From: Trifolium pratense
Lineage: Eukaryota; Streptophyta; Magnoliopsida; Fabales; Fabaceae
DNA: 64,000 bases
Reading direction: 5' to 3'
Assembly (NCBI RefSeq): GCF_020283565.1
Contig: NC_060065.1
Location: 37,560,409 to 37,624,408 of the forward strand
This document shows, one piece after another, positions 10,976 to 16,554 of this stretch. The translations under genes and the position numbers were made by a program. Position 1 is the stretch's first letter, and every line of letters begins with the position of its first letter. The notes below the pieces were generated by a model. The model did no database searches, was not told the origin of the DNA, and saw only the letters and a program-made list of their open reading frames with translations.

Positions 10976-12590
10976 TGTATACGGATATTATATATATTTT
11001 CTATTTTGTTGTGTTGTTAGACTCTTTAAACCATTATCATTTCATCTCTGGAAACATAGGATGGTATTACAGGGGTGTCCTTGAGATTTTGTAAGTTAAA
11101 ATTTTAGTATCTGTTTTCTATAAGTCGGGTAATTATAAATATATAATATGAAAGAAAAATTAAACATTATATCAATATTAAAAAGTTGACGTCAAATAGA
11201 TTCAATTGTTAGAATCTATCTAATAACTTTTAATTCTTCAAATATATTTCACTATTAATATCATAAGAGTCTAAATTTTAAAAACAAATTGTCAAAAAAA
11301 ATAATTAAAATTTAGTTATAATTATATGATTTACTTATTTTAACACACACGGATGCACGCACACACATAGACACACACGTAAAAAAAAATAGGTGTCATA
11401 CGTGGTCGCTCCTCTTGAACACCCTATGAAACCTTCACGAGTATCGACATTTGACTCATAACACTAGTACAAATATGACATATTACACATCATGTTTACA
11501 TCTGACGAGCATATGTCAGATGTAAAATGCTATATGAAGTAGTCTTTTCATCTGGCTTTAATGTCCACAGATGTGAAAAATAAATAGACAAGACTTTTTA
11601 CATCTGGCTTCAATGTACCAGAAGCATAACTAAACGCGGTGGCAATCTTGTAATTATGGAAACAATATATAAGTCAATTAAGAGTAAAAAATAAAAAATA
11701 AAAAAAAGACATATTCGTTCAACTCAGAGTGAACCCGCTGCTCTCACGATGAACCCTAAACTATCTAACGCTAAATTCAACTTCTCTCTCACTCGATTCA
11801 ATCGTTCATCACGATCTCAAATTCCCTCTCATCTCTCACAATTGAACTCGTCCTCTCTCTCTCTCACTCGAAATTGAACCATCTCTCACGATGAAACCCT
11901 AAGATTCTCAGGCGAAATTGAACAATCTCTCACTCGAACCTGGCCTCTCTCTCTCTCACACTCGTTCTCTCGAACTCCTCAGATTCGCCCAAACTTCATC
12001 GTCTTCTTCAGGTTCTCAAGATTCGTTCAAGCTTCAGGTTCAACATTCACTAAACTTGTGTTTTTTGACATGATTAGTGTTTGAGTTAATTTGATTTTGG
12101 ATTAAAATTTGAATGAGAAGTTATTTTGTAGTTTGAGCTAATTAGGATTTTGATTTTGTAGTTTGACCTAATTAGGATTTTGTTGTTTTAGGTTATTTAA
12201 TGGACTTGTTGATATTTTTCTATTTTCTTAGTTGTTTTGATTTTTGAGTTGAAATTGTGGTTGTGTTGTTTTAGCATGCTTAGTGTTTGAGTTAATTTGA
12301 TTTTGGATTAATGAGTTTTAGGTTTTATAATCCTTTCATTCTTATTCAGATGAAATTGATGATGGATTCTATTATGAAATTTTCACAAATTACACTCAAC
12401 AACTTGTTTATGTTTTTAATTTTTATTTCATTTAAAGTTTGTGATTTTTTTCAGGTTCATGTTTATAATGTACCAATTTACTTGTTCAAATGTCAATTTT
12501 AAGTTTGTGATTTTTATCTTCCATTATCATGTAGTCCATTTGTTACAACTATTTACATTTACTTGTTAAAATTTTATTATTCTATAACAG

Positions 12591-12680
12591 GACTCCATGG
12601 TATGGGTGGAAGCTTTGTTACCATTCGAAAATGGGGACCTTCTCAGCACCATTCACCAGGTTGGAATGGTTGAGAAAGCT
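12591..12680 (+). pseudogene. Captured exon fragment similar to HflX-type GTPase
   Basis: It is bounded by a splice acceptor (tataacag, ending 12590) and a strong donor (gtaagt from 12681). The 30 codons read DSMVWVEALLPFENGDLLST and then IHQVGMVEKA. This resembles the C-terminal region of plant HflX GTPases as I recall it. The flanking intron-like sequence contains a direct repeat (about 12406-12448 and 12774-12814). It is a fragment inside the CACTA element, not a complete gene. Confidence 0.6.
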
Positions 12681-13447
12681 GTAAGTAAATACCCCTGTCC
12701 ATCTATCAATTGCTACCTGTTGATCATAGTCTGGCATATTATACATTGTTTAGTATATTGTGCTTTCCTCCTCGTTATGTTTTTAATTTTTATTTCATTT
12801 AAAGTTTGTGATTTTCTATTATGTACCATTTAAAGTTTGCCATCAGGCCTATGAGTACTTTGCATACTTAGCTTGTTTATTCAATGCATAAGTTGTTTTG
12901 ATCAATTTATGTTTGAATTATTGTTTTGTTTTATCATATAGCATTATAGTAAGTGAAGATGATGTTCATTCCATCTGTGTCAAGGCATAATATTATCCAT
13001 GTCTGCATGTAGTTGAAGTTATGCAGTTTGCTAGAGTAATCTTATTATCGATCTTGTGTTGGGTGGTTTGTTCTTCAATACACTATATGCAGGCTATTTT
13101 CTCTTTTCATTCTTTAGCTTCGAAGAATAATGCAATTTTGGGTTTCATTGTTTTTCACTCTGTGATCAATTTTGCAGAACAAAGATTGGCCTTTTGGATT
13201 TCTTGTTTTTCTTCTATTTACTATTGTTTATTTTGATTGTTGATGATCATCATGGAGAATTATTCAAGAAGTGGTGGTGTTCATGATTTTACTATGGCTT
13301 CAAGAAAAGCTGAAGAAACAAGTAAGTTTTAAATTTTCATTTTACTCCCAATTCATTCTTTTTTTTTATTATAATGTTACAATGTTAATTTGAATTTCTA
13401 AACCCTGAATGATATGATGATCATGTGGATTTGTGGGTCTCGTGCAG

Positions 13448-13543
13448 GTTGATGACACCCTCGACTTATTCAACGAACTTCAGTTGCAACATCAGGTGGT
13501 AGCTACAAAGACTAAGACGCTTCATGATGCATGTGATAGACTG
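13448..13543 (+). pseudogene. Captured exon fragment similar to COG3 (conserved oligomeric Golgi complex subunit 3)
   Basis: It follows the acceptor gtgcag (ending 13447). The 32 codons read [20 protein letters not shown] and then [12 protein letters not shown]. That matches the N-terminal coiled-coil region of plant COG3 (Sec34). After the Leu the frame soon reaches a stop, where the parent gene would continue, so capture ended at or near an exon boundary. A piece just upstream (13252-13321, reading MENYSRSGGVHDFTMASRKA, with donor gtaag at 13321) is unidentified and does not join it in frame. Confidence 0.65.
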
Positions 13544-13986
13544 ATGTGGTTTTGCTATCTATCCTCTTAATCTCAGTTGTCTTTTTCTTGTTTTTCTTTT
13601 GTTTTGCCTGGAATGATTGTGAAAGTTACTATGGCATGTGGGTAATGGTTGCCCTTTGAATGTACTCTCTTGTTACTTTAATAATTGGCCAAATTATGTA
13701 TATGTAGAACTAGTAAATTAAATTAGAAAACTGGTTACTGCATTTCCCTTTATGCATAGTTGCAAATATGAGTATAATAGAGTTACATGTAGGAATTTTG
13801 AATATAGAGAATCAAAATCCATCTACTCTCTCTTACACGAAAGAATCTTGATACCATGCCCATGTCGCGTAAAGGAATGACACATTGAAATCAAACTAGC
13901 TCATACGTATCTCTTATTTATTCATTCATCATTTGAACTCACTCACCATGTTTTTTTGCTTAATTTACTCAGTTGCTTCATTGCAG

Positions 13987-14131
13987 AGTTGTTTTAGCAC
14001 CCTTGACAAGAAATAGATCCTACGGCAAAGTTCCTCAATCTCATGCTATCCTCTATTACTCTCAGAGAGCAGCTTGTTCTAATGGCGGTCTTCTCATAAC
14101 TGAAGCTACCGGTGTCTCTGATACTGCAAGG
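13987..14131 (+). pseudogene. Captured exon of 12-oxophytodienoate reductase (OPR)
   Basis: Acceptor ttgcag ends at 13986 and donor gtgagt starts at 14132. The translation [20 protein letters not shown], followed by ILYYSQRA and [15 protein letters not shown], is the typical start of the old-yellow-enzyme barrel in plant OPRs, which act in jasmonate synthesis or in reducing reactive enones. The end reads DTAR where the family usually has DTAQG; this suggests a small deletion next to the donor. It is a fragment only: no FMN site or catalytic Tyr region is present. Confidence 0.8.
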
Positions 14132-14252
14132 GTGAGTAAATAATACTATTTGGTAGTATTGTAGTATCACCCAGTTTTCTCATAAGTGGGTACAACTCAC
14201 TCATAGCAATAAATCTCAACCAAATGTTCTTTCTCATACTTAGTCAATTTAG

Positions 14253-14640: not shown

Positions 14641-14789
14641 ATCTTGAAGGCATGTTAAATATGAAGATTCAAGATTTGGAGATCGTAGAGGAACGTAGAA
14701 TCAAAAGAGCGGACAAACATGGAATTGTTAAATATGAAGATTTGAAGATTGTTATTTCATCCGAAACGTTGTTGTTCAAGTCACTTGAT
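14641..14789 (+). pseudogene. Exon-like segment of unknown origin in the CACTA element
   Basis: An acceptor (cacttgtag, ending 14640) and a donor (gtatgc from 14790) bound an open frame. It reads LEGMLNMKIQDLEIVEERRI and then KRADKHGIVKYEDLKIVI...FKSLD. It is charged and probably helical. I do not recognise the parent gene. Confidence 0.4.
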
Positions 14790-14994
14790 GTATGCATTCT
14801 TACTTTTTCTACTAGTGTCCTTTTTCCATTCTTACTTGCATTGTCAAGCTAGATCAGTGATTTTGATCCTTATGCATATATCACATTAATTACTCAAATG
14901 TTATGGTAGTTATAATCCTCTTTTTCCCTTGTAATGATGTTGAACTAATAAGTCGAAATTGGGCATATGCATTAGTTTTTAATCTGAGTGAAAA

Positions 14995-15206
14995 TGCATA
15001 AAAATGGGGACTGTTTTACTATATTCATCTGCATAAAAATGAGACTATTTTGCTGTAAATTTCTGCATGAAAATTGGAACTGGTTTGATGTATTTTTCTG
15101 CATAACAACGGGACTGTTTTGCTATAATTTTCTGCATAAAAAGAAGGGCTGGTTTGCTGCATTTTTTTGCATAAAGGGAACTATTTTCTTTGTTTCTTTT
15201 CTGCAG
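14995..15206 (+). repeat. 35-bp minisatellite, about six copies
   Basis: Units begin gcataaaaatgggga, gcataaaaatgag, gcatgaaaattgg, gcataacaacggg, gcataaaaagaaggg and gcataaaggga at 14995, 15031, 15065, 15100, 15134 and 15169. The spacing is 34-36 bp. The array ends in a splice-acceptor-like ttctgcag at 15206, ahead of an open segment reading NYAGCMLPIVRARHTLRGAL. Confidence 0.8.
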
Positions 15207-15589
15207 AATTATGCAGGTTGCATGCTGCCAATTGTGCGGGCGCGCCACACCCTTCGTGGGGCGCTCGAGGCAGCAGCCTTTAGCTCACTTTGTGTTGCAT
15301 TTTGTTCGATTTTAGATTATGTGGTATGATACTACCTGAATGTATGTTAATTTATATATACGAATTAGTTGATCATGTATACGTAATGAATTTTAGTCAT
15401 GTATATATAAGTAAATATATATTTACATATTGTAGGTGTTCGATGATCCGACGTCATTAATAGAGGAGGAGCTGTATGAATTGTGAAACAGTTGGGCAAC
15501 TTGTTTTCTTGACCTATATAATCCTTAGGTAGATTATGATGTTGCCGATGAGGCTTAGGAGCTAGCTAGGTTAATTTGTGTGATGTTAC

Positions 15590-15775
15590 AATGGATTCAT
15601 TAATTATGATGTTTTGAATTGTAATGACATTTGATATTTTGCTTGAATGTTGAATTGTATGACATTTGGTATTTTGGATGAATGTTGAATTTTAATGACA
15701 TTTGATTATATTATGTAAGGGTATTTTGGTTGAATGTTGAATTGTAATGCTATTTTGGTTTTTTTTAATTACAAA
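15590..15775 (+). repeat. Degenerate tandem repeat in the 3' part of the CACTA element
   Basis: Repeated 'gaatgttgaattgtaatgac' and 'atttgatattttg' modules occur three to four times at spacings of about 45-55 bp, in non-coding sequence after the possible last exon. Confidence 0.6.
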
Positions 15776-16554
15776 ATAAGATTTAAAATATAAAAAAAAA
15801 ATGCAGGATTTTGAAAAAAAAAAATTAAATAAAGTTACTATTTCACATCTGGTGACTTGGTCAGATGTAAAAGGTCCAATTTAATTAAAAAAAAATTGGT
15901 CAGCTGAAACACGAGAACAGAGGTAAAAGGGGACACTTTTACATCTGGCGAATGTCAGATGTAAAAAGCGTAAACTTACTACTTCTTGTACGTCTACCTC
16001 TGACCGGGGTCAGATGTAAAATGGGGTTTTGGCCAGATGTAAAAAGTGTTTTCTGTACTAGTGTAATATGTTATTATTATCAATCTCAACGGGTTGATAA
16101 ACCAATGTAAGCATCTTAAAGTTAAATGTTAAAATCAGTAGTATTAGAAAGAATTGCGACGAATAAACACTTTCTTCACTCCAACTTCAACAATTTGATA
16201 AGAGAAATATATCTGGATACTATGTATATTATGTCTGAGACATTGTACATTGCAATCAAAATCAGCACATACCTAAAAATATGTACTCGGTGACTGCAAC
16301 ATGTAGATCAACTACAACCGTTTTTCTCCCTCATAAACGTGATATGAGCGATGGCAATTCCAAAACAATTCCGCGTTTTCTAATGTTCCTAATATTATAG
16401 AAATTGGAAATTGTTCATATTTGCACAAACATTTGCGCAGCAGTAAGTAAGTTGATCTATGAAATTATAAAACAATTTACTAAAAACACGGAGAACCATT
16501 TGTATTAGGGCCGTTTTATTATTACATTTTATAGTTTTTTTGGATCTTATTATT

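Follow-up and report, generated by a model that had tools for sequence, protein, structure and literature searches.

CACTA transposons that carry pieces of host genes have a direct legume precedent in Tgm-Express1, the 5.7-kb element of the soybean wp allele, which holds pieces of five unrelated host genes and gives rise to many chimeric transcripts (Zabala and Vodkin, PMC1947982). The Pack-CACTA and Pack-TYPE elements of Arabidopsis, rice and maize are non-autonomous, are bounded by terminal inverted repeats (TIRs) and a target-site duplication (TSD), and carry coding DNA from at least one locus (PMC8903248). The same features are found in an element located at positions 11462–16063 of a 64-kb stretch of clover DNA, the whole of which is called the window here. 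This complete, non-autonomous CACTA-type element of 4602 bp differs from the Pack-TYPE elements of Arabidopsis, rice and maize in its host. Between its ends lie coding DNA of four host genes and no transposase, as in a Pack-CACTA. It is very probably such an element, whose CACTA ends enclose short stretches of genomic DNA from four or more unrelated host genes. A sequence-only reading had described it in this way, namely as a TSD-flanked Pack-CACTA in which fragments of at least four unrelated genes share one orientation. This description is borne out by the ends with their TSD, by the subterminal repeats and by four protein matches.

The comparison with Tgm-Express1 is the closest in kind, since both are legume CACTA elements of similar size with exonic and intronic pieces of unrelated host genes. 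However, Tgm-Express1 is inserted in the second intron of F3H, whose promoter drives the F3H transcripts into which the captured pieces are spliced (PMC1947982), whereas no gene was recognised at the clover site and the clover element is known from its sequence alone. The captured genes also differ, those of Tgm-Express1 being UP, CDC2, FPK, malate dehydrogenase and cysteine synthase (PMC1947982). With regard to the ends, the Jozin CACTA element of Chenopodium vulvaria opens with the same 12 bases, CACTAGTACAAA, which include the 10-bp CACTAGTACA of the clover element, and it likewise has subterminal repeats at both ends; the two diverge past these 12 bases, and the subterminal motif given for C. 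pamiricum is TATTTGTAACTA (PMC8978399). No statement on captured genes in the C. vulvaria element was found in the available part of that paper. Soybean Tgmt* and Tgm1 are also alike in their CACTA ends, their 3-bp TSD (ATA for Tgmt*) and their subterminal repeats in both orientations, but Tgmt* has the subterminal motif TTGGCAG together with AATCTTACAG, as compared with TTTTACATCTG in clover, and encodes its own transposase (PMC2613891).

CACTA elements are the least frequent group of DNA transposons in red and zigzag clover (PMC5996420), and no description of an element of this kind in Trifolium was found in the accessible portions of the literature on CACTA, gene capture, Trifolium and Medicago. 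The capture process itself has been documented in soybean, Arabidopsis, rice and maize, and the clover element is a clear case of it. It leaves the general picture of gene capture unchanged, adds for Trifolium a structurally complete multi-donor Pack-CACTA with TSD and subterminal repeats, and suggests that Tgm-Express1 is no isolated case among legumes. It also lends itself to the study of how such elements gather exons together with the introns next to them.

Ends and transposase content

The TIRs are 10 bp long and match at all 10 positions, with CACTAGTACA running from 11462 and TGTACTAGTG up to 16063; both start with CACTA and are flanked by an exact 3-bp duplication, TAA. The value of such a pair of ends was judged against 200 simulated windows of 64 kb with the same composition, generated by an order-1 Markov model, in which a CACTA pair with TIRs of 10 bp or longer, flanked by a matching TSD, arose by chance in seven. 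Taken alone, the CACTA ends are thus fair evidence for an element, and their shortness, together with this frequency, is what favours the alternative that the ends are fortuitous and that the pieces were assembled by unrelated insertions or by rearrangement. The exactness of the TSD argues against that alternative, and so do the subterminal repeats (Table 1). Counted in either orientation, exact copies of TTTTACATCTG number seven in the terminal 393 bp, none in the 4209-bp interior and none in the 59.4 kb outside the element. Allowing one mismatch gives 11, 0 and 4 copies, and allowing two gives 12, 2 and 38, respectively; the terminal 393-bp stretch was delimited post hoc, when the repeats had already been seen. 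Subterminal repeats at both ends are the usual build of CACTA elements, and their concentration at these ends settles the CACTA identity; fortuitous ends are a most improbable explanation of the locus. One lone internal TAACACTAGT, at 14561, was considered as a relic of a further end. It matches the right end over 7 bp and shares its TSD, but no subterminal repeats adjoin it, and it is attributed to chance.

All 45 open frames of at least 40 residues that overlap the element were scanned against Pfam, and no transposase family matched in any of them, as expected of a non-autonomous element. The concern, raised along with the sequence-only reading, that the pieces might match only transposon proteins proved unfounded, since they match host proteins. 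Across the 45 frames only COG3_N and Oxidored_FMN fell below 0.01, and the next value, 0.011 for DPCD, corresponds to the chance expectation for this number of frames. DPCD and the other weak matches, namely Cytochrom_B_C (0.057), MPS-4 (0.061), ArAE_2_N (0.071), DUF1184 (0.074) and Ion_trans (0.091), were dismissed as chance, as were ArAE_2_N (0.042) and SiaC (0.24) on the leader piece when cut out.

Captured pieces of host genes

The four host coding pieces, which are all on the plus strand, resemble the GTPase HflX, the Golgi tethering complex subunit COG3, a 12-oxophytodienoate reductase (OPR) and a 4-coumarate-CoA ligase (4CL). For HflX, a query of translation residues 1–40 retrieved 62 of 63 candidate proteins at E 10 or better, the best at 1.1e-9. 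Seventeen of the 62 listed proteins, including entries from Medicago, Cicer and Trifolium repens, are 100% identical to the piece across 29 residues. The assignment comes from this protein-database search; the piece and its frame have no Pfam match at 0.1, no solved structure and nothing in NCBIfam. The 11 full-length HflX proteins compared extend on both sides with sequence that is absent from the element. One of them, the Abrus isoform P0124, continues beyond the exon with STNCHLLIKFWN, to be compared with SINCYLLIIVWH in the element behind the GTAAGT donor. In this comparison of 40 residues with a single protein, an equally high score was reached by 10 of 2000 shuffles. Since the Abrus gene model resembles the element past the donor, the HflX exon appears to have been taken along with part of its intron, which suggests capture of genomic DNA.

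This resemblance, limited as it is to one protein and 40 residues, also bears on whether the pieces could derive from processed transcripts, an origin with which their exon-like character would agree. Against retro-capture stand this continuation past the HflX exon and the AT-rich stretches that lie between the pieces, which are not joined to one another; the probability that they came from transcripts is put at a very low level.

The COG3 piece is spanned in all of its 33 residues by the Pfam COG3_N match (profile positions 20–52, E 9.4e-5, 22.8 bits). On the whole open frame the match improves to E 2.5e-5 and 24.7 bits, beginning two residues before the AG-bounded start and ending at the same last residue; both scores lie below the whole-protein cut-off of 27.9. 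No solved structure matched this piece and NCBIfam yielded nothing, and a Pfam match of its frame to DED (0.057–0.064) was taken as chance.

The OPR piece matches OPR1, with E 2.6e-16 when cut out and 7.6e-17 as part of the whole frame. The whole-frame match begins two residues ahead of the acceptor codon and ends with the codon that precedes the donor. Pfam Oxidored_FMN, already mentioned, belongs to this piece, and in NCBIfam it matches the N-ethylmaleimide reductase model at E 4.3e-7. Among the best 60 of 98 matches, OPR1 entries reach 61.1 and 54.7 bits, and OPR3 entries reach 24.8 to 30.8 bits with E 1.7e-6 or worse. The 4CL piece was recognised through solved structures of 4-coumarate-CoA ligase 2 (4CL2). 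The cut piece reaches E 5.7e-4 and the whole frame 6.9e-5, and five of the six chains listed in the whole-frame search are 4CL. Pfam gave only 0.17 for AMP-binding_C on the piece and no such match at 0.1 for the whole frame, and the NCBIfam matches are weak (0.057 for acyl-CoA synthetase and 0.067 for o-succinylbenzoate–CoA ligase). OPR3 is the main jasmonate enzyme, and an earlier remark that the OPR and ligase pieces might share a jasmonate theme has to be given up: the OPR piece stands nearer to OPR1 than to OPR3 (best 60 of 98), the other piece matches 4-coumarate ligases, and these solved-structure matches, to which the comparison of 4CL with OPCL was confined, give no pointer to OPCL.

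The pieces had been thought to keep their acceptors and donors, which is true of half of them. Splice sites stand at both edges of the match in HflX and OPR only, the left edge of OPR being placed to within two residues. The COG3 piece has no GT donor at the end of its match, where it reads ATG-TGG, and the 4CL piece has no clear acceptor because its match already covers the GAG ahead of GTTCCT. An exonic origin of the pieces is supported for HflX, through the one Abrus gene model that continues past the same residue, and for OPR, where the match ends at the donor, as judged in both cases from related proteins. A further exon, proposed for the stretch between AG and GT at 14641–14789, was not confirmed. 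This stretch has no relative in Pfam, NCBIfam or solved structures, and none of 12 candidates in a protein-database search restricted to proteins of 0.55 to 1.75 times 733 residues reached E 10. The frame at 13243–13329 also lacks a match in Pfam, NCBIfam and solved structures.

Table 1. Features of the clover element and of its surroundings (window coordinates)
Feature	Coordinates	Strand	Basis
Left TSD copy, TAA	11459..11461		Sequence
5′ TIR, CACTAGTACA	11462..11471	+	10/10 bases equal to the other end
5′ subterminal repeats, TTTTACATCTG with ≤2 mismatches, both orientations	11494..11606		Motif count
Possible TATA box, TATATAAG, ahead of a CT-rich leader-like stretch (about 11730–12037)	11666..11673	+	Read from sequence; putative promoter role
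HflX GTPase exon piece, 30 codons, AG acceptor and GTAAGT donor	12591..12680	+	Protein search
COG3 piece, 33 codons, AG acceptor	13448..13546	+	Pfam COG3_N
OPR1-type 12-oxophytodienoate reductase exon, AG acceptor and GTGAGT donor	13987..14131	+	Protein and Pfam matches
4CL-like ligase piece, 27 codons, GTAAGA donor	14261..14341	+	Solved-structure matches
Exon-like stretch between AG and GT	14641..14789	+	Open frame
Internal tandem repeat, 35/69-bp unit	14995..15175		Repeat analysis
Possible last exon, 16 codons and TGA, behind TTGTAG	15436..15486	+	Read from sequence; putative
3′ subterminal repeats	15841..16044		Motif count
3′ TIR, TGTACTAGTG	16054..16063	-	Sequence
Right TSD copy, TAA	16064..16066		Sequence
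Direct duplication, 81–94% identity in listed pieces, copies about 12 kb apart	6503–7831 and 18228–20323		Repeat comparison

Capture, movement and possible expression

A Pack-CACTA of this build would depend for its cut-and-paste movement on the transposase of a related autonomous CACTA element, and the TTTTACATCTG repeats may be the sites to which this enzyme binds. The host pieces would have been gained at the DNA level, exons along with flanking intron sequence. The most likely route is a joint transposition of CACTA elements inserted near each other, which would carry the intervening DNA with them; faulty gap repair is the alternative. Joint mobilisation of neighbouring insertions is the capture model argued for Pack-TYPE elements (PMC8903248) and is also told in PMC13317346.

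Several observations weigh against interpreting the locus as a multi-donor Pack-CACTA, or against the proposed route of capture. No second copy of the element, as would be expected of a Pack-CACTA family with shared ends, was found elsewhere in the 64-kb window. The interior of the element shows no remnant of CACTA ends accompanied by subterminal repeats. Neither joint mobilisation nor gap repair has left a visible trace in it, and the fusion model is without direct support. The COG3 and 4CL matches are short and individually modest, and 4CL is invisible to Pfam below 0.1. Finally, the T. pratense HflX model P0160 is 93% identical to the captured piece (27 of 29 residues); because of the two differing residues, the donor itself is not yet located. 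The piece may keep ancestral residues or may derive from another copy.

Whether the assembly has become a gene is a separate issue. A domesticated chimeric gene, in other words one that is transcribed, under selection and builds a functional protein or a regulatory RNA out of the captured exons, would account for the TATA-like box and the CT-rich leader near the 5′ end and for the sense orientation of all four pieces. It would also agree with the fact that HflX and COG3 share one frame if joined at splice sites. However, this joined frame stops at 13570 after a total of 70 residues from both pieces, so that a long chimeric protein is unlikely to be made from the element. Moreover, the OPR exon leaves its own frame when spliced to HflX, and the splice sites missing from the edges of the COG3 and 4CL pieces speak in the same direction; domestication is therefore considered very unlikely.

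For the Pack-CACTA itself, any transcript would start in its own 5′ region or in neighbouring DNA and would probably be spliced in variable ways. A more elaborate scenario, regarded as unlikely, would have the element use its own promoter, leader and last exon. It could then produce sense chimeric transcripts of HflX, COG3, OPR and 4CL-like sequence, act as a mobile exon-shuffling cassette that needs no host promoter, or give rise to small RNAs directed against the four donor genes.

Host and surroundings

The identity of the host was approached through a complete ERF-type protein encoded at 26509–27120. Among the best 120 of 4098 matches, it is 98% identical to a T. pratense protein, and the other named clovers with a full-length match follow at 87% (T. 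subterraneum) and 80% (T. repens). The identity of 98% indicates that the host is red clover or a very close relative. The element sits between the two copies of a duplicated region (Table 1), each of which has an Ssb-like OB-fold open frame on the minus strand. No gene was recognised around the insertion in the 10 of 35 long open frames that were scanned with Pfam, and an unannotated gene may be present.

Other features of the window are listed for completeness. The inverted repeat at 5019–5361, with 132-bp arms that are 97% complementary and separated by 79 bp, is probably a young foldback or MITE-like insertion, and another inverted repeat, at 61157–61429, has 108-bp arms that are 92% complementary. 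The C-terminal dimerisation region of a hAT transposase is found at 42532–43200 (Pfam E 7.1e-8), and the end of a match to the RNA polymerase subunit Rpb8 at 59711–60034 (Pfam E 7.4e-11, profile positions 106–141 of 141).

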